The notes below the pieces were generated by a model. It saw only the letters and a program-made list of their open reading frames with translations. It was not told where the DNA came from and searched no databases. Position numbers and translations under genes: made by a program. Shown one piece after another: positions 5,878 to 19,941 of a stretch of 33,898 bases of DNA (position 1 is the first letter of the stretch; each line of letters opens with the position of its first letter). Source of the stretch: a virus; IMG/VR virus record IMGVR_UViG_3300025711_000083, positions 1 to 33,898 of that record; one strand, given 5' to 3'.

Positions 5878-6974
5878 ATCTGAATACCGAGCTACTGGAC
5901 CTGAAAAGCAAAAGTCCGGCATTCAGTATCACCATCGAAGGCAAAGACGTGACGACGGTGATGGATGCGCGCCTGATGAGTCTGACGCTGACCGACAACC
6001 GGGGCTTTGAAGCGGACCAGCTCGATCTGGAGCTGGACGACGCGGACGGAATGATTGTTCTGCCGCGTCGGGGTGCGGTGATCCATCTGGCGCTGGGCTG
6101 GAAAGGCCAGCCTCTTTTCCCTAAAGGGGGATTTACCGTGGATGAGATTGAGCACTCCGGTGCGCCTGACCGGCTGACCATCCGCGCACGCAGCGCTGAT
6201 TTTCGGGAAACCCTGAACACCCGGCGTGAAAAGTCTTGGCACCAGACTACCGTGGGGGCGGTAGTGAAGGAAATTGCTTCCCGCCACAACCTGAAACTGG
6301 CACTGGGCACAGACCTGACGGAAAAGCCGCTCGACCACCTGGACCAGACCAATGAGAGCGACTCGAGTTTCCTGATGAAGCTGGCGCGCCAGTATGGGGC
6401 GATTGCGTCCGTGAAGGACGGAAACCTGCTGTTTATCCGCCAGGGGCAGGGCAGAACGGCCAGCGGTAAGCTGCTGCCGGTTATTACCATCACTCGCAAG
6501 GCCGGAGACGGACACCGGTTCACCCTGGCAGATCGCGGGGCATACACCGGCGTCATCGCCAGCTGGCTGCATACCCGTGAACCAAAGAAGAAAGAGACTA
6601 CACAGGTGAAACGCCGCCGCAAGAAAACCACCGCGCCCAAAGAGCCGGAGGCGAAGCAGGGTGATTATCTGGTGGGAACGGATGAAAACGTGCTGGTCCT
6701 CAACCGGACCTACGCCAACCGCAGCAATGCGGAGCGTGCAGCCAAAACGCAGTGGGAGCGCCTGCAGCGCGGAGTAGCGTCATTCTCCCTGCAGCTCGCA
6801 GAAGGGCGGGCAGATCTCTACACCGAGATGCCGGTGAAAGTGAGCGGCTTTAAACAACCCATTGATGATGCGGAGTGGACCATCACCACGCTGACACATA
6901 CGGTGAACCCGGACAGTGGATTTACCACCAGTTTGGATCTCGAAGTGAAAATTGATGAGTTCGGAATTGAATGA
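5874..6974 (+). CDS. D: Tail hub/late control protein
   Basis: The product is a 366-residue equivalent of P2 gpD (387 residues), a baseplate hub protein of the gp27/VgrG-like class needed for tail assembly. Family signs include the early SPAFSITIEGKDVT segment, DNRGFEADQLDLELDD near residue 45, and the SDSSFLMKLARQYGA motif near residue 160. A lysine/arginine-rich linker (KRRRKKTT) follows near residue 245. Its start overlaps U and it is the last gene of the FI operon. Downstream are 67 bp and then ogr, as in P2. Confidence 0.93.
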   Translation: MNLNTELLDLKSKSPAFSITIEGKDVTTVMDARLMSLTLTDNRGFEADQLDLELDDADGMIVLPRRGAVIHLALGWKGQPLFPKGGFTVDEIEHSGAPDRLTIRARSADFRETLNTRREKSWHQTTVGAVVKEIASRHNLKLALGTDLTEKPLDHLDQTNESDSSFLMKLARQYGAIASVKDGNLLFIRQGQGRTASGKLLPVITITRKAGDGHRFTLADRGAYTGVIASWLHTREPKKKETTQVKRRRKKTTAPKEPEAKQGDYLVGTDENVLVLNRTYANRSNAERAAKTQWERLQRGVASFSLQLAEGRADLYTEMPVKVSGFKQPIDDAEWTITTLTHTVNPDSGFTTSLDLEVKIDEFGIE

Positions 6975-8693: not shown

Positions 8694-8848
8694 TAGAATC
8701 CTAATGAATGTTCGTGTATTTTTTATTTAAACATAATTTTTGGCGGTTTGCATTGAGCAGATTACTAGGTAGAGATGTAACTTACGGTGAACGGATTCTG
8801 GTTCTTTTCTTAATTGTTTTTTGTTTTTTTTGCATTAGGAGTATTATA

Positions 8849-9589
8849 ATGAATGTATTTGAATGGCTTTTTTGTACACTAACAAACATAGCTAGTGGCA
8901 ATAAGGATTTAGTCCAGTTTTTCGTCGCATTTGGTACTGTTGCATCGGTAATGGTTGCATTATATATTTCAATTAGAAATAATAAAAGAGATACATTCGA
9001 ACGGAATTTTTCTTTACTTTTAGAACAACACAATGAACAGTTGAATGCTCTTCTTTCACGAGACGATTTCGGAGATAAATTATCGAATGTGTTGGGGTTT
9101 TCAGGAAGTAAAGATTTGATGTCGGCAAATCAGCGAATGCATAAACTAGATTCTTATTATGGTAGCTATTTTAGAGTTCTTTATTATTTGTTGAATCATA
9201 TTGACAGGAATTATTACGGATACATTTTTACTCATAAAAAAAAGAAGTTTTATACAAGTATGGTTAGATCGTTTTTAAACTCAGATATAACTCTTCTCTT
9301 AATAATAAATGTGGCACATGCTACTAAAGGTAATCAGTATTATGGATACAGATGTTTAATTGAAAAGTATTCATATCTAGAGCACTTGGTTATTGATGGT
9401 GAGGTTTTTGTTTCTGGTTGCCGTGAAGATGTTAGAAATGGATTGGCTTGGGAGAATGGTATCGATGCTAATTCTTATATAACAAGACTTCAAATACTCG
9501 ATGATATTTGCAAAGTATTTCCATTGTCATCTTTTGGTGATAATGATTGGAAGGAGCATGTAATAAGTGTCAAGGGGCAGTTAATCTAA
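8849..9589 (+). CDS. Putative AbiC-like abortive infection membrane protein
   Basis: The product is 246 residues from this start. A single membrane segment lies at about residues 22-44 (LVQFFVAFGTVASVMVALYI), followed by a soluble helical domain. The stretch SYYGSYFRVLYYLLNHIDRN and a later YGYRCLIEKYSYLEHLVI resemble the putative phage abortive infection (AbiC-like) family. The frame is open to an ATG at 8708, which would add another hydrophobic segment, but AGGAG stands 7 bases before 8849 and no ribosome site precedes 8708. The gene is strikingly AT-rich compared with the structural genes, indicating recent acquisition. Its place beside attP/int is a classic cargo position. The defence role is inferred from resemblance only. 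Confidence 0.65.
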   Translation: MNVFEWLFCTLTNIASGNKDLVQFFVAFGTVASVMVALYISIRNNKRDTFERNFSLLLEQHNEQLNALLSRDDFGDKLSNVLGFSGSKDLMSANQRMHKLDSYYGSYFRVLYYLLNHIDRNYYGYIFTHKKKKFYTSMVRSFLNSDITLLLIINVAHATKGNQYYGYRCLIEKYSYLEHLVIDGEVFVSGCREDVRNGLAWENGIDANSYITRLQILDDICKVFPLSSFGDNDWKEHVISVKGQLI

Positions 9590-9707: not shown

Positions 9708-10733
9708 CTAATAAAGTTTATTCTCCATTGTGGCAAGAGGGTTAAATTTTAATGCTGTTTCAAGGTGGTCAGGGGCAAGGTGAGCATAACGCATGGTCAT
9801 TTTTATGTCGTGGTGACCCAGGATTTTCTGTAGGGCAAGGATATTTCCGCCGGACATCATAAAGTGTGCTGCGAAAGTGTGACGTAGAACGTGAGTCAGC
9901 TGTCCGCGCGGAAGTACGATAGAAGTTTTCTCCATCACCGACATAAACTGAAAGTAGCAGTCCGTGAAGAACTTGAAGCCGTCCAGGGCAATGATCTCCT
10001 CATACAGCTCTTTGCTGATCGGAATGCTACGGTTCTTTTTGCCTTTGGTCCTGACAAATGTGATTCGGTGTTTAGTGACCTGGAATCGCGTAAGGTTTAC
10101 AGCTTCGCGCCAGCGTGCTCCGGTGCTCAGGCAGATTTTAACGACTAGGGCGAGCTGTGCGCTTTGGCGTTGGCAGTCGTACAGAAGCTCTGTGATTTGT
10201 TCATGCGTGAGCCAGGCCATTTCCTTTTCGGCAATGGTGAACTTGCGCATGCTTTCCAGTGGATTTGGCGCAGTCCATTCTCCAAGGCGTGCCAGCTCGC
10301 TAAAAACGCCACTCAGATAGCTTTGTTCGAGGTTGATTGTTACCGGGCTGGCACCTTTCTTCCACTTCTCACTGAAATAGATTTCACCCGTCAGGCGTTT
10401 GTCACGGTAATGCGCGAACATTTTCGAGCTGAGATCAGTAGCTAGCGGGTTTCCGAGTGCATCGACCATCAGGATCAGCTTGTCGTAAACATGCTCGCCA
10501 GCAGTAAGGGATTTACCGTGCAGTTTGAACCAGAGTTCAACCACGTCTTTCAGAGTCCGACGGTCTACCGATTCACCCAGCCAGGGCTTAGCTTCTGCCT
10601 CATCCATCGTGTGACGCTCAAAAGCCAGCGCTTCGCCTTTAGTGGCGAACTGCTTACGCACGCGACGCCCACTACGTCCGGCGGGGTAGCATTCACAAAT
10701 CCATTTTCCTGTTTCGAGTTTTCGTACTGCCAT
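9708..10733 (-). CDS. int: P2-type tyrosine recombinase integrase
   Basis: The product is a 341-residue integrase that catalyses attP x attB recombination and, with the Cox/Apl-type factor, excision. The arm-binding N-terminal domain starts MAVRKLETGKWICECYPAGR. The catalytic residues are visible: Arg207 in TGARWRE, Lys230 in RTKGKK, His281 and Arg284 in HVLRHTF, His307/308 in LGHHD, and Tyr316 in RYAHL. In 186 int is co-transcribed with cI. Here two cargo genes, a terminator and a LexA-box promoter separate them. The start codon abuts the terminator T-run, and its only ribosome site (GAGGG) lies in the hairpin's 3' arm. Confidence 0.95.
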   Translation of the reverse strand: MAVRKLETGKWICECYPAGRSGRRVRKQFATKGEALAFERHTMDEAEAKPWLGESVDRRTLKDVVELWFKLHGKSLTAGEHVYDKLILMVDALGNPLATDLSSKMFAHYRDKRLTGEIYFSEKWKKGASPVTINLEQSYLSGVFSELARLGEWTAPNPLESMRKFTIAEKEMAWLTHEQITELLYDCQRQSAQLALVVKICLSTGARWREAVNLTRFQVTKHRITFVRTKGKKNRSIPISKELYEEIIALDGFKFFTDCYFQFMSVMEKTSIVLPRGQLTHVLRHTFAAHFMMSGGNILALQKILGHHDIKMTMRYAHLAPDHLETALKFNPLATMENKLY

Positions 10734-10758
10734 AAAAAAGCCCTCATGTCTGAGGGCT
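10734..10758 (-). terminator. Terminator abutting the int start codon
   Basis: On the minus strand AGCCCTCA (10758-10751), loop GACA, and TGAGGGCT (10746-10739) form a perfect 8-bp stem followed directly by T residues up to the ATG of int at 10733. It should end the cI-ATPase-DUF4276 transcript. The 3' arm contains GAGGG, the only candidate ribosome site for int, so the hairpin would also mask it. Confidence 0.85.
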
Positions 10759-10760
10759 AA

Positions 10761-10789
10761 ATTTAACTGTATATTTGAACAGTGGTCAA
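10761..10789 (-). promoter_or_regulatory. SOS promoter with LexA box upstream of int
   Basis: On the minus strand TTGACC (10789-10784) and TTAAAT (10766-10761) are 17 bases apart. A LexA box, CTGT-ATATTTGA-ACAG on the plus strand at 10767-10782, fills the spacer. The expected start, about 10751-10754, lies inside the 5' arm of the downstream terminator hairpin. Repression by LexA and induction by DNA damage follow from the box; neither has been shown for this phage. Confidence 0.75.
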
Positions 10790-10823
10790 TGTATTAAAGT
10801 GAATGACTCATACAACAAGCATT

Positions 10824-11375
10824 TCAAATTCTACTTTGTAAGCCTCTAATAAAAACATTGTAGCTACCAGACAAATTTCCCTCGATACTCAGAATCTTAC
10901 CTATAGCTCTTGAACCAGAAACTTTTTGATATTTTTTCTTGGTCAAATTGATTAGCTCTTGAGCGGCATTGCCTAGCCTGTCTGGATTGCGGAATTTTTG
11001 ATTATTTTGATGTCGCGAAAGTCGCGGTATTTCTAGAGCAGCTTCGACTGAAGCTAAATCACCAAGATACCAACTTTCAAGTTCGTGGCAAGCGATGCGT
11101 ATTAATACATCATCCTTGCCAGCATTAGTACAGATTTCAGACAGTCTTCCTTTTATTGTGGGGCCATCTCCACTATCTTTATCTCGGATTACAATGAAGA
11201 CCGTATCCGGAGTCATCCATCTGCTTAATTTTTTTTCAAGATTTTTTTCTAAATCTTGTTTGCCTTCAAAAGAAATATACCGAACACAACTGTCCGCTGG
11301 TAACAAACGCGGTAATAGTCCTTTCAGCATCTCCTCGGCTGATAACTCTTCTAAAAAGAAAGCATATGTTGTCAT
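10824..11375 (-). CDS. DUF4276-like (TOPRIM-like) partner of the AAA ATPase
   Basis: The product is a 183-residue protein resembling DUF4276, which is commonly paired with AAA ATPases. Visible features are an early acidic motif (FFLEELSAEEML, residues 6-17), an aspartate pair in IVIRDKDSGDG (Asp65, Asp67), and the HELESWYLGD motif at residues 97-106. The Glu plus DxD pattern is what a TOPRIM-type metal-dependent nuclease would have, so it is the likely effector. Its ATG overlaps the stop of the ATPase by 4 bases (ATGA), showing translational coupling. The pair looks like a two-component abortive infection system of the OLD/AbiL/PARIS kind. Exact type and nuclease activity are inferred. Confidence 0.72.
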   Translation of the reverse strand: MTTYAFFLEELSAEEMLKGLLPRLLPADSCVRYISFEGKQDLEKNLEKKLSRWMTPDTVFIVIRDKDSGDGPTIKGRLSEICTNAGKDDVLIRIACHELESWYLGDLASVEAALEIPRLSRHQNNQKFRNPDRLGNAAQELINLTKKKYQKVSGSRAIGKILSIEGNLSGSYNVFIRGLQSRI

Positions 11376-12571
11376 TGAGGATCAACCCCCGGGAAGAATC
11401 CTTGTTTCCATAAATATCCCATTTTATCGCCGTCATCCATATATGCCACTAGTTGCGGATCTTCTGAGGCTCTGTAAGAACGGGTATATCCATTAGTTTT
11501 AGTTAACCAAAATACTTCATCAACATTAACCGCATTCAAGAAATCAGGAGAATGTGTTGAAACGAAAACTTGTCCTCCGCGCTCAGTATAAGCTCTAAAT
11601 TCCTCTGCTAGTTCAACGAGTAGCTTAGGATATAACTGATTCTCAGGTTCTTCAACACAAAGTAATGGATGTGGTTCAGGGTCATGTAGTTGCACTAAAT
11701 ATGCAAACATTTTTAATGTACCGTCAGAAACATATCTGTCAATAAACGGATCAGCAAAGCTTCCATCCTGAAAACCTAATAATAAACGTCCATCTTGTGT
11801 ACTAATTGGTTTTACGTCAGATACCCCAGGAACCCTGTGCTTCATAGAATCTATTATTGTTGCAAAAATTTCCGGGTAATTATCATGAATATTTCTAGCA
11901 ACTAATTGAAGATTATCGCCTGTTGCAGATAAGTGGTCTTCGTAACCAATGGCATCCTTAGAGCCTCTCGCGGCATTAATGTGAAAGTCAGAAACATGCC
12001 AGTTTTCAATAAGCTGTCTGAAAGCACTAGCTGCTTTAAATTTGCTAAATTGTCCTAATCCCTTTATTGCTAAAACATCATCAGCATCAAGTTGCTGTGA
12101 CTCTCTGTTTAATTCTTCATCTTCTTTGCTAAAGTCATCTTCGTTTACAATTGCAGTACCTTGACCTTTGGCAAAATCTAAGAAATGGTAAGGGGAACCA
12201 TACGCCCCCCGCTTATATCTTAAAATCTCTCTGTCTACAAAAACTTTATTTCTTGTATCTTCTTTTAATTTTAGAATGTATGTGACTAATCTTTCATATC
12301 CGCTTATCTCTAATCGAAATTTGACTTCTATCTCAATTGTACGGTCATCTTGGTTTACACCGCGACTAAGAAGTTCATCAAACCCCCCTCGTTTTTGTAC
12401 TGCGCTTCTAACATTGAACGTTAAGCAATCTTTCAGAAAACCAAAAACGTCAAAAAGTGTTGTTTTTCCAACACCATTTGCTCCGACTATTACGCAGAAT
12501 TTAGGGATGTTGTTCATTTCAAGATCTTGAAATGACTTGAAGTTTTTTAATTTTATCGCTTCGATGAACAT
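11372..12571 (-). CDS. OLD-like AAA/ABC-type ATPase, probable phage defence
   Basis: The product is a 399-residue ABC/SMC-like ATPase. The Walker A motif GANGVGKTT is at residues 30-38, a signature-like VSDGTLKM lies near residue 282, Walker B LLCVEEPE is at 303-310, and the switch histidine is in STHSP at 338-342. It begins MFIEAIKLKNFKSF, the usual start of OLD/RecF-type ATPases. It has no C-terminal TOPRIM domain of its own; the next gene appears to supply it. AAGGAG precedes the ATG directly after the cI stop, an 8-base gap, so it is the second gene of the cI transcript and should be made in lysogens. Base composition is more AT-rich than the core genes. Confidence 0.8.
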   Translation of the reverse strand: MFIEAIKLKNFKSFQDLEMNNIPKFCVIVGANGVGKTTLFDVFGFLKDCLTFNVRSAVQKRGGFDELLSRGVNQDDRTIEIEVKFRLEISGYERLVTYILKLKEDTRNKVFVDREILRYKRGAYGSPYHFLDFAKGQGTAIVNEDDFSKEDEELNRESQQLDADDVLAIKGLGQFSKFKAASAFRQLIENWHVSDFHINAARGSKDAIGYEDHLSATGDNLQLVARNIHDNYPEIFATIIDSMKHRVPGVSDVKPISTQDGRLLLGFQDGSFADPFIDRYVSDGTLKMFAYLVQLHDPEPHPLLCVEEPENQLYPKLLVELAEEFRAYTERGGQVFVSTHSPDFLNAVNVDEVFWLTKTNGYTRSYRASEDPQLVAYMDDGDKMGYLWKQGFFPGVDPQ

Positions 12572-12579
12572 AAGGCTCC

Positions 12580-13188
12580 TTATTTATTCGGAGGAACGTT
12601 GGAAATTAGTAATTCGATCCTTGCAACAATTTCAATATCAGAAAAGTTGCATTCAAAACTGTCGTCTAAAGATGAAATTTTAATCCTACCTTTAGGAAGT
12701 CTGATAATGGATCTAATTGAATAGGTGCCATCAATATTGATCAACCAGTGTCCATCCAAAACCTCACCGAATTTTTTATCGCAAATGTAAGTTGTGGCAC
12801 CGTCAATAACAATTATTGGTAAGTGAAGGCTAGCAGGAAGAAATGAAGAATCAAAGATGAATGAACCTTCTTCAATCATTTTTCCTTCTGTTAATCTAAA
12901 TTTTACAAGTTCTTCAGTGGTCGCATTCTTAGAGTTTGTCTTTAGACCTTGTCCAGTGGTTAACCAGTTTAGTGATACGCCTGTTTCAAGAGCGCACTGG
13001 ATTATCCAGTCGGCAGGGAACGTATCACGCATATATCTGTTAGCCAAAGTGCTTTTTGAAACATCCAGGTGATCGGCTAATGCCTGCCGTGTTGTAAAAC
13101 CATACGCCTCTACCAATCGTTCAATCGCAGCTTTACCACCCTGATTGGGATTTAATTTGATCTCAGTTGGGTACTTTGATGTTGACAT
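12580..13188 (-). CDS. cI: CI repressor, coliphage 186 type
   Basis: The product is a 202-residue repressor that keeps the early promoter silent. The N-terminal DNA-binding domain (GGKAAIERLVEAYGFTTRQA onward; helix-turn-helix about residues 32-50) and the following NRYMRDTFPADWIIQCALETG are close to 186 CI. The C-terminal half is the oligomerisation domain. I see no LexA-type self-cleavage arrangement, as in 186, whose CI is removed by an antirepressor instead. Its start codon overlaps the -35 box of the opposing early promoter (13182-13187). It is followed within 8 bases by the ATPase gene. Confidence 0.92.
   Translation of the reverse strand: MSTSKYPTEIKLNPNQGGKAAIERLVEAYGFTTRQALADHLDVSKSTLANRYMRDTFPADWIIQCALETGVSLNWLTTGQGLKTNSKNATTEELVKFRLTEGKMIEEGSFIFDSSFLPASLHLPIIVIDGATTYICDKKFGEVLDGHWLINIDGTYSIRSIIRLPKGRIKISSLDDSFECNFSDIEIVARIELLISNVPPNK
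13164..13176. promoter_or_regulatory. Candidate CI operator half-site in the 5' end of cI
   Basis: The sequence CAGTTGGGTACTT nearly repeats CAATTGGGTACTT at 13223-13235, 59 bp away. The pair brackets the early promoter. Assignment to CI rests on repetition and location. Confidence 0.5.
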
Positions 13189-13537: not shown

Positions 13538-14047
13538 ATGTTTGACTATCGCATATCAAAACATCCCCATTTCAATGAAGCCTGCCGAGCCTTCGCTCTA
13601 CGCCACAATATGGCGAAGCTGGCAGAACGTGCAGGCATGAACGTTCAAATCCTGCGTAATAAGCTCAACCCGGAGCAACCGCACCAGCTCACAGCACCAG
13701 ACATATGGTTGCTAACCGATCTCACCGAAGACTCAACGCTGGTTGATGGGTTTCTGGCGCAGATCCATTGCCTGCCATGTGTGCCAACCAATGAAGTCGC
13801 ACGTGAGAAAATGCCTCAGTACGTCCTGAAAGCCACCGCCGAAATGGGACGTGTCGCTGCGAGTGCGGTTTCTGGTGTTCAGCTGAATGCGACTACCCGC
13901 CGTCAGGTTGTTGAAAGCGTCAACTCAGTTACTCGTTTGATGGCTTTAACCGCTATTTCACTGCAGGCGCGTTTACAGGCCAATCCTGCAATGGCCAGTG
14001 TCGTCGATACCGTGACAGGTCTTGGCTCTTCTTTTGGGCTGAGCTGA
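13538..14047 (+). CDS. cII: CII-like lysogeny establishment regulator
   Basis: The product is a 169-residue protein, the same length as 186 CII, which activates transcription of cI to establish lysogeny. The N-terminal helix-turn-helix region (FALRHNMAKLAERAGMNVQILRNKLNPEQPH) is the hallmark of this family, and the LTAPDIWLLTDLTEDSTLVDGFLAQIHCLPC stretch follows. GGAG lies 9 bases before the ATG. It is the second gene of the early operon, 32 bp after the apl/cox-like gene. Confidence 0.88.
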   Translation: MFDYRISKHPHFNEACRAFALRHNMAKLAERAGMNVQILRNKLNPEQPHQLTAPDIWLLTDLTEDSTLVDGFLAQIHCLPCVPTNEVAREKMPQYVLKATAEMGRVAASAVSGVQLNATTRRQVVESVNSVTRLMALTAISLQARLQANPAMASVVDTVTGLGSSFGLS

Positions 14048-18304: not shown

Positions 18305-18324
18305 TACTGTATATATAAACAGTA
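18305..18324 (+). promoter_or_regulatory. LexA (SOS) box at the tum position
   Basis: TACTGT-ATATATAA-ACAGTA fits the LexA consensus almost perfectly (CTGT-N8-ACAG with an AT-only spacer). It lies 16 bp before the GTG of a small gene between A and cos. 186 carries its LexA-controlled tum promoter at this map position. A TTTAAA/TATATA pair with 16-bp spacing overlaps the box. Confidence 0.88.
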
Positions 18325-18340: not shown

Positions 18341-18526
18341 GTGAACGATTTGTTCATGGAGTCACTTGCATTGCAGCGGATAGAACTTATGGCCCGGCTG
18401 GTCGCCAGCTCAGATTGTAGCGATGACGACAAGGAGGTTGCGATCTCGTGGTTGTCGGAGCTGACTAGCGATCTGTTTACCAGGCTAAATGAATATGGAG
18501 TAGGGCAGGATGAGAGTACGCATTAG
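18341..18526 (+). CDS. SOS-controlled small protein, candidate antirepressor (tum position)
   Basis: The product is a 61-residue acidic, helical protein (GTG start; MNDLFMESLALQRIELMARL) preceded by GGAGGGAG 2-5 bases upstream and by the LexA box. In 186 the gene at this position is tum, whose product binds CI and triggers prophage induction after DNA damage. Tum is clearly longer (about 146 residues, recalled), and I see no convincing similarity, so this may be a non-homologous replacement. CI here shows no self-cleavage motif, so an SOS-induced antirepressor is needed and this gene is the best candidate. It overlaps a 34-codon frame at its 3' end. Confidence 0.65.
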   Translation: MNDLFMESLALQRIELMARLVASSDCSDDDKEVAISWLSELTSDLFTRLNEYGVGQDESTH

Positions 18527-18614
18527 TGATTTCGCACCATGGGAAACTCCCTCCTATATGGCATCCTGCGGTTTGAGAAAGCAGTGCATGTCTATGGTGC
18601 ATGGATTCGCATGA
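18510..18614 (+). CDS. Possible 34-codon gene overlapping the SOS gene
   Basis: The ATG at 18510, directly after AGGGCAGG, opens a 34-residue frame (starts MRVRISDFAPWETPSYMASC; 3 Cys) that overlaps the previous gene by 17 bases. The overlap would give translational coupling under LexA control. It ends about 95 bp before cos. No family is recognised. It could be the second half of a two-peptide antirepressor or a chance frame. Confidence 0.35.
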   Translation: MRVRISDFAPWETPSYMASCGLRKQCMSMVHGFA

Positions 18615-18671
18615 TCCAAATAGGATCGCAACAGGTCGGGGCCGCCAGAACTGGCGCGCTTTCCGGCCTGT

Positions 18672-18685
18672 CATGCACCTGCATG
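18672..18685. repeat. Palindrome next to cos
   Basis: CATGCA and TGCATG form a perfect 6-bp inverted repeat around CC, 24 bp upstream of the predicted cos nick region. A terminase-binding role is plausible from position only. Confidence 0.4.
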
Positions 18686-18708
18686 AAAACCACTACACAA
18701 AGCGGGCA

Positions 18709-18727
18709 GGCGTGGCGGGGATACGAT
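18709..18727. other. cos: Cohesive-end site cos
   Basis: GGCGTGGCGGGG at 18709-18720 matches the first 12 bases of the 19-base 186/P2-type cos (186 GGCGTGGCGGGGAAAGCAC, as recalled). The remainder differs (ATACGAT). It lies where P2 phages have cos, between the A/tum end and gene Q. The terminase (M and P) would cut here to form the linear virion genome, so the RES gene would be the first gene at the left end. Confidence 0.7.
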
Positions 18728-18755
18728 TGCGCGCTTATTTCAAAACGGCAATAAT
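18727..18755 (+). promoter_or_regulatory. Candidate promoter of the RES gene
   Basis: TTGCGC (18727-18732), a 17-base spacer and AATAAT (18750-18755) lie between cos and the RES gene. The -35 is weak, the -10 good. No Ogr site or LexA box is present, so constitutive expression is expected. Confidence 0.4.
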
Positions 18756-18786
18756 TAACTTTTCAAAACCTATCCTAGGAAAGACA

Positions 18787-19941
18787 ATGTTTATCTGCGA
18801 AAACCATATCGTCGAACCAAACGTAAAAAATCATGTTCGTCTGCAGACTGAAAACAACATATGTGTGTTTTGTAATACTGTTACAAAATGCCTAGATACT
18901 GATTCGATAGAAGCTCGAAATTTGCTAAAAGCAATCCTACGTTATAACTTTGATGAAGTTCTCTATAATACACATATTGGTGGTGACTATTTTACAGGTT
19001 TTTTATTAGCGGATGATTATATATTTTGCAAGGATATCCAAAGTCAAACGGAAGAGTTTACTGATCTTGATAGTGAAATATGGAGTATGGGGTTCACAAC
19101 TCCAGGTGAGATTGATATACACTCAGGGCATGATCAAGATGGCATGAGGAATATGCCGTTTATGTCAATTATTAACTCATACCATCCATTTATAGAAAAA
19201 TTATCTAAGAAACTTGCTGAGGTAAATTACCATGATTTTGAAGATGAATTGAGGGATATTATTAAAGATTATGGAAATTCTTTTGCCAAAATAATTGAGG
19301 GTAGTTCTGTAGTTTATCGTGCTCGCGTAGGGACTGCTGGTTATAAAAAAGCTCATGAAGATTTTAACCGTGAAGGTAAGAAAATATTCGTTCCATACAA
19401 AAATAAAGAAATAGGTTCTGTTCCTCCTCTTAAAGCTACAGCAGGTAGAGCTAATAGGGTAGGGGTTTCATACTTATATTGCGCGACTGATAGCTATACC
19501 GCGATCGCTGAAGTTAGACCTCATCCTACAGATGTAGTTTCTTTAGGTAAATTTAGCGTGTCACGAGCTTTAAAAGTATTCGATTTTTCATATCCAAATT
19601 TATTAGACTTTATCGAAAATGAAGATACTTTATTGAGAATGATTCCTTATGCTAAAATGGCGGGTATTTTTAATACCGCTACACCACCCTCTTTAGAGGG
19701 AAGGTATAGTGTTTCACAGCTCATATCTGACTGCATAAGAAAGGAGGGGTACGATGGCATACAGTTTTCAAGCACTGTTGGTGAAGGGAAGAATTTAGTT
19801 GTGTTTAATCCTAATAACATGGAATTTATTGAGGGTAGTTCAACGGTAATTGAAATTGATAAAGTGCAATATATATACGAAGAAAAACAAGTAGTAGGGA
19901 TGAATGATCAGTGGGAAATTTATTATAATGAAGTTGAGTAG
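18787..19941 (+). CDS. RES-domain protein with N-terminal Cys-rich domain
   Basis: The product is a 384-residue protein. The C-terminal half is a RES domain: YRARVG (Arg178), GRANRVGVSYLYCA (221-233), IAEVRPHP with Glu242, and IQFSSTVGEGKNLVVFNP with Ser328/329, supplying the R, E and S residues that name the family. Characterised RES toxins such as MbcT degrade or modify NAD+. The N-terminal part carries C-x2-C pairs (Cys4, CVFC at 26-29, Cys35), as in RES proteins with an N-terminal HEPN/RES-associated domain. The frame is open back to 18601, across cos, but AGGAAAG precedes the ATG at 18787. It is very AT-rich, has no visible antitoxin gene, and sits beside cos, where P2 carries its defence gene tin. 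Confidence 0.75.
   Translation: MFICENHIVEPNVKNHVRLQTENNICVFCNTVTKCLDTDSIEARNLLKAILRYNFDEVLYNTHIGGDYFTGFLLADDYIFCKDIQSQTEEFTDLDSEIWSMGFTTPGEIDIHSGHDQDGMRNMPFMSIINSYHPFIEKLSKKLAEVNYHDFEDELRDIIKDYGNSFAKIIEGSSVVYRARVGTAGYKKAHEDFNREGKKIFVPYKNKEIGSVPPLKATAGRANRVGVSYLYCATDSYTAIAEVRPHPTDVVSLGKFSVSRALKVFDFSYPNLLDFIENEDTLLRMIPYAKMAGIFNTATPPSLEGRYSVSQLISDCIRKEGYDGIQFSSTVGEGKNLVVFNPNNMEFIEGSSTVIEIDKVQYIYEEKQVVGMNDQWEIYYNEVE

Follow-up and report, generated by a model that had tools for sequence, protein, structure and literature searches.

The present analysis of a 186-like phage identified, directly upstream of its integrase gene (int), a compact cassette of about 85 bp (10815-10734) that comprises, from upstream to downstream, a CII-type activator site, a -35 element, a LexA box, a -10 element and a hairpin with the ribosome site in its 3′ arm, the int ATG coming next. 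We consider it probable that int is thereby provided with its own promoter, activated by CII, repressed by LexA and proof against read-through from upstream genes. More broadly, and with less assurance, we lean towards the view that this is a previously undescribed mobile int cassette, combining CII control, LexA control and start-site-dependent exposure of the ribosome site, that has arisen more than once and permits the presence of defence cargo between cI and int in 186-like phages.

The window, i.e. the whole analyzed stretch of 33,898 bases, corresponds to the virus record IMGVR_UViG_3300025711_000083. It carries a 186-type cI repressor gene (12580..13188, minus strand; PF07022 and PF16452), a cII activator gene (13538..14047, plus strand; PF06892, phrog_101), a gpA-type replication gene and a tyrosine integrase gene, int (9708..10733, minus strand; PF24624 and PF00589). 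Two cargo genes of the minus strand, encoding an AAA ATPase (11372-12571) and a DUF4276 protein (10824-11375), separate cI from int; together (10824..12571), they match both halves of HEC-01, a candidate defence system of PADLOC. A pair of this type (AAA ATPase and DUF4276) is found at the same place in a relative from E. coli ECO2947 (L131), whose hairpin sequence is different, and the cargo of the cI-int interval varies in other relatives (for example, a KAP NTPase). A second and perfect LexA box (18305..18324, plus strand) lies upstream of a small ORF (18341-18526, 61 aa) with DinI/Tum-like profile matches (strong for phrog_698, weak for phrog_189); BLASTP revealed no homology between this ORF and TumA of PSP3, so that the assignment is one of profiles. 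The position of tumB downstream of this ORF is occupied by an unrelated ORF of 446 aa (18601-19941). This LexA box likely belongs to an SOS antirepressor promoter, which is expected to fire together with that of int.

Read on the minus strand, the int upstream region consists of TTGTATG-N13-AATACAT, TTGACC, ACTGTTCAAATATACAG, TTAAAT, TT, AGCCCTCA-GACA-TGAGGGCT, TTTTT and the int ATG. The -35 element TTGACC (10784..10789) and the -10 element TTAAAT (10761..10766) are separated by a 17-nt spacer, and both are conserved in the family (strongly for TTGA, and in the TAAAT columns for the -10). The LexA box CACTGTTCAAATATACAGTT (20-mer, 10765..10784) lies between them, its core CTGT-TCAAATAT-ACAG (10782-10767) filling the spacer. 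It scores 19.6 bits with a matrix of 18 known E. coli LexA sites, the result being independent of fine score differences. This value falls inside the range of the known sites (13.7-25.8 bits) and ranks second among all 20-mers of the window, after the box at 18305 (27.2 bits) and before a third one at 11.0 bits. The int box thus has the features of E. coli-type LexA sites, i.e. CTGT-N8-ACAG and an overlap with promoter elements, and we infer that LexA would bind the int promoter and that DNA damage would induce it. All these parts, as well as the hairpin, T-run and ribosome site discussed below, lie base for base where the preliminary description had placed them. However, bare patterns of the promoter class near int (13 observed, 11.7 expected) and of the terminator class in the int region (five observed, 4.8 expected) occur at chance level. 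Therefore, the pattern alone would not count, and the decisive evidence is its conservation.

This conservation was assessed on int relatives drawn from IMG/VR, GTDB genomes, phage records and E. coli genomes, which gave 275 distinct upstream regions. With LexA boxes called at 13 bits or more, the -35, LexA box, -10 and ribosome-site hairpin were found together upstream of int in 180 of the 199 relatives in which int stands apart from the preceding ORF, the box being missing in the other 19. No LexA box was found in the 76 relatives in which int abuts the upstream ORF (186, Fels-2 and Cartapus type). The joint conservation of box and hairpin, for which an alignment of related phages had been suggested, was thus borne out. 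Since the 180 regions were picked by box score, the core pattern was also searched in IMG/VR without reference to int: int was directly downstream in 98 of the 99 loci retrieved (95 int homologues by BLAST and three int starts with a truncated or mis-called ORF), the remaining locus being a chance match. Within the 180 regions, the boxes score 15-26 bits and their CTG...CAG columns are essentially invariant against drifting surroundings. One half of the box reads CTGG in 42 of the 180, which counts against LexA control; CTGG is a weaker LexA form known in natural sites such as ruvAB. A close int of the window's family is present in more than a thousand complete genomes. Besides, a P2-like prophage remnant of E. 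coli Nico21(DE3), a BL21-type strain, carries an int cassette with a CTGG..ACAG box of 22.2 bits.

The hairpin AGCCCTCA-GACA-TGAGGGCT (10739..10758, minus strand) has a perfect 8-bp stem (10758-10751 paired with 10746-10739) and a 4-nt loop. Its 3′ arm contains GAGGG (10745-10741), the only sequence resembling a ribosome site for int. A run of six T's (10734..10739) follows the stem and adjoins the int ATG (10733-10731), so that this GC-rich hairpin has the form of an intrinsic terminator in the window's clade. The stem sequence differs among clades, yet its pairing with a ribosome site in the 3′ arm is kept in nearly all members; neither the loop nor the arms retain their sequence from one clade to another. 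Chimeric hairpins joining halves from different clades reach on average -5.4 kcal/mol, compared to -12.5 kcal/mol for native ones, and none of 20,000 permutations was as good as the native pairing. Among the 180 distinct elements, the T-run is present in 82, with no further terminator in the 150 nt upstream of any of them, and absent from 98; nearly all of the latter still have the stem, and 42 possess a separate terminator upstream. As the two groups are distributed by clade, a Fisher p-value calculated on them overstates independence. Since about half of the elements are devoid of the T-run whereas the stem is rebuilt, sequestration of the ribosome site appears to be the constant and termination the option, and we rejected termination as the conserved function because many clades lack the T-run. 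We also rejected a leader peptide encoded by ORF 10747-10565, whose out-of-frame ATG lies within the hairpin, as other clades do not have it.

The distance to the -10 places the predicted transcription start in the region 10751..10754 (minus strand), at the loop-proximal end of the 5′ arm, where A10751 is the purine closest to the expected position; a start there is plausible. RNA initiated within this region begins inside the 5′ arm, so that it could not form the full hairpin and would leave the ribosome site open. Folding predicts the full stem in the read-through RNA of the window, whereas RNA starting at 10751 can form only a weak alternative fold (-3.9 kcal/mol) and RNA starting at 10754 retains four pairs (CUCA/UGAG). 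Across the family, the median predicted cost of opening the ribosome site is 7.6 kcal/mol in read-through RNA versus 1.3 kcal/mol in promoter RNA (9.8 versus 1.3 kcal/mol in a first set, n = 51), compared to 2.9 kcal/mol for leaders with shuffled 5′ parts and 1.5 kcal/mol for ints co-transcribed with cI. The ribosome site is thus predicted to be closed in RNA initiated upstream. However, a start only 2-3 nt further upstream (10755-10756) would leave a 5′ arm long enough to keep it closed, which makes the model sensitive to the precise position of the start. The comparative data and these opening costs strengthen the earlier proposal that a LexA-controlled promoter yields an int RNA devoid of most of the 5′ arm. 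The proposed insulation of int from cI and cargo transcripts is supported as regards the hiding of the ribosome site but not, for the family at large, as regards the stopping of the transcript.

The conserved region does not begin with the promoter. The preliminary description delimited an element of 60 bp, but conservation starts upstream of it, at about 10815, with an inverted repeat whose downstream end falls within the -35. In the window, this repeat (TTGTATG-N13-AATACAT, 10789..10815, minus strand) abuts the -35, its last T being the first T of this element, and it is degenerate, departing at four of its 14 arm positions from the consensus of 186. The family consensus, ATGTWTG-N12/13-CAAACAT, has half-sites about 20 bp apart, centre to centre, and occupies a fixed position against the -35. 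It resembles the 186 sequence ATGTTTG-GAAACCTGAAAAT-CAAACAT (read along pE), which carries the annotation of the CII site through which pE is activated. The equivalent of this site in the window is ATGTTTT-N13-CAAACAT (13538..13564, minus strand), covering codons 1-9 of cII. A repeat with at most three mismatches to the 186 site was found in 165 of the 180 LexA-boxed regions (1.9% in shuffled upstream DNA), and its right arm ends 3-4 nt before the LexA 20-mer in 164 of these 165. A matrix of the int-side repeats, built with the window left out, ranked 135,484 window positions: the best match is the pE CII site (22.0 bits) and the int site comes fifth (15.3 bits), among the weaker ones of the family (median 22.0 bits). 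The int-side spacer has 12 nt in 101 sites and 13 nt in 64, whereas that of pE has 13 nt in all 104 sites scored; pE spacing is additionally constrained by the cII reading frame. An RNA hairpin or a relic of a cargo boundary were rejected as explanations of the repeat: substitutions in its arms are not consistently paired, and its position and spacing are fixed. In 186, both cI and integrase are expressed from the CII-activated pE, and mutation of the promoter-distal half-site lowers this activation (PMC8538670). With a CII-type operator at about 10815, the int of the window is therefore probably activated by CII at infection too, and not by SOS alone. Two other CII-site-like repeats were observed in the window: one of 18.1 bits at 8708-8734, overlapping the start of a putAbiC-type gene (8708-9589), and one of 17.0 bits at 11684-11710 within the ATPase gene, which may be due to chance.

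On the Int tree, the cassette fills two large and well-supported clades. One relative (L291) is the single carrier within an otherwise cassette-free Fels-2 clade; another (L310), inside a cassette clade, has no cassette and its int adjoins the upstream ORF again. Three others (L187, L190 and L192) have kept the CII-type repeat upstream of int and lost the LexA box. The int of L039 is 95% identical to that of the window; its upstream region (5900-6000) is unrelated and devoid of the hairpin but has a different LexA box of 20.8 bits, a possible independent gain of SOS control. Such cases suggest that the modules can be acquired and lost independently of one another. Parsimony requires six changes for the cassette and six for the separation of cI and int. 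Independent pairs gave two or three concordant cases, no difference in the rest and none contrary, which is too few for significance.

According to the model that we propose, LexA would keep the int promoter down in the lysogen, and RNA arriving from cI and the cargo would fold the full hairpin and hide the int ribosome site; in the window's clade, the hairpin would also terminate this transcript. While lysogeny is being established, CII, in addition to driving pE, would turn on the int promoter and thus supply integrase, in the manner of lambda CII at pI. After DNA damage, LexA cleavage would let this promoter fire at the same time as the tum-type gene behind the LexA box at 18305, providing integrase for excision. 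The cassette would thereby have restored the control of int by CII once cargo had split the cI-int operon, so that cargo could be tolerated between the two genes with neither loss of this control nor constant production of integrase. Some points speak against this model: (i) the infected cell already contains LexA, whose box overlies the promoter that CII should activate; (ii) the CII site of the window is among the weaker ones and the 12- or 13-nt spacers of the family differ from the uniform one of pE; and (iii) the link between separation and cassette is built on few independent changes.

Other explanations deserve consideration. The LexA promoter and the hairpin could constitute the whole device, dedicated to SOS response and insulation, the repeat not being a CII site but, for example, an unrelated operator or what cargo exchange has left behind. 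Box and hairpin are indeed the best conserved parts, and the degeneracy of the repeat in the window, like its spacer in many phages, fits this explanation. However, the half-sites of the repeat are those of the 186 CII site, with near-identical spacing and a fixed place against the -35, a matrix built from the int side ranks pE first, and int would be left with no clear source of expression at integration; we thus regard this explanation as unlikely.

It seems to us very improbable that the region merely associates an ordinary terminator of the cI-cargo operon with a constitutive int promoter, the LexA box being incidental or weak. The hairpin of the window, with its six T's, is a canonical terminator, and the box has been lost in three relatives, as this would allow. 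The invariance of CTG..CAG and the scores of the boxes in all 180 regions are difficult to reconcile with an incidental box, and ribosome-site stems are kept where there is no T-run, many such loci having a terminator of their own. Finally, the hairpin could serve in conditional termination or bind a protein or an RNA, for example in autoregulation by Int, rather than expose the ribosome site according to the start. P2 offers a parallel, as its Int is said to autoregulate and a terminator is said to lie between its C and int genes. Nevertheless, pairing and ribosome site, and not loop or arm sequences, are what clades share, and Rfam gave no family above its gathering score (the best, RyhB, reaching 25.3 bits versus 55 required), which makes this role extremely unlikely. 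We therefore retain the model of a promoter controlled by both CII and LexA and shielded by its hairpin.

An integrase is needed at infection, has to be silent in the lysogen and is needed again at induction; about 85 bp appear to serve all three. The cassette also appears to shield int from any genes inserted upstream, which suggests a way in which defence genes came to be carried as cargo between cI and int. Furthermore, it leads to the prediction that SOS induces integrase in many prophages of E. coli, including the BL21-type remnant.

Each part of the cassette has precedents, and their combination appears to be new within the literature searched: with partial coverage, we found no report of a LexA-controlled integrase in P2/186-like phages nor of all these parts combined on a prophage integrase. 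In IS10, IS50 and IS200, an RNA structure hiding the ribosome site of the transposase gene shields it from outside transcription; unlike the cassette, these are insertion sequences with additional layers of antisense RNA and Hfq and with no known SOS or CII input. Lambda, which limits int by other means, has a CII-activated promoter dedicated to int (pI), as the cassette does. However, its CII protein and site are unrelated (PMC8538670, PMC7708051). No LexA box is known at pI. The pE/cI-int operon of 186 shares with the window family the sequence of the CII site, a CII-driven integrase at establishment and the phage family. By contrast, int of 186 abuts cI and, as had been stated initially, is co-transcribed with it, from pE/pL, with neither promoter, LexA box nor hairpin of its own (PMC8538670). 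In integrons, an E. coli-type LexA box overlies the SOS-induced promoter of the tyrosine recombinase gene intI, as in the cassette, but neither a CII site nor a start-dependent hairpin at the ribosome site is described, and the recombinase belongs to another group (PMC3108266). A parallel to the hairpin is offered by gene e and I-TevI of T4, whose ribosome site is hidden in long upstream transcripts and whose local promoter initiates past the 5′ arm, yielding a translated RNA (PMC3014915, PMC2988022). There, T4 late promoters, and not LexA or CII, set the timing, no terminator function is described and the product is not a prophage integrase. Lastly, p95-tum of 186 is a LexA-controlled promoter from the same phage family, with its equivalent in the window at 18305; unlike the int cassette, it drives an antirepressor and not int.
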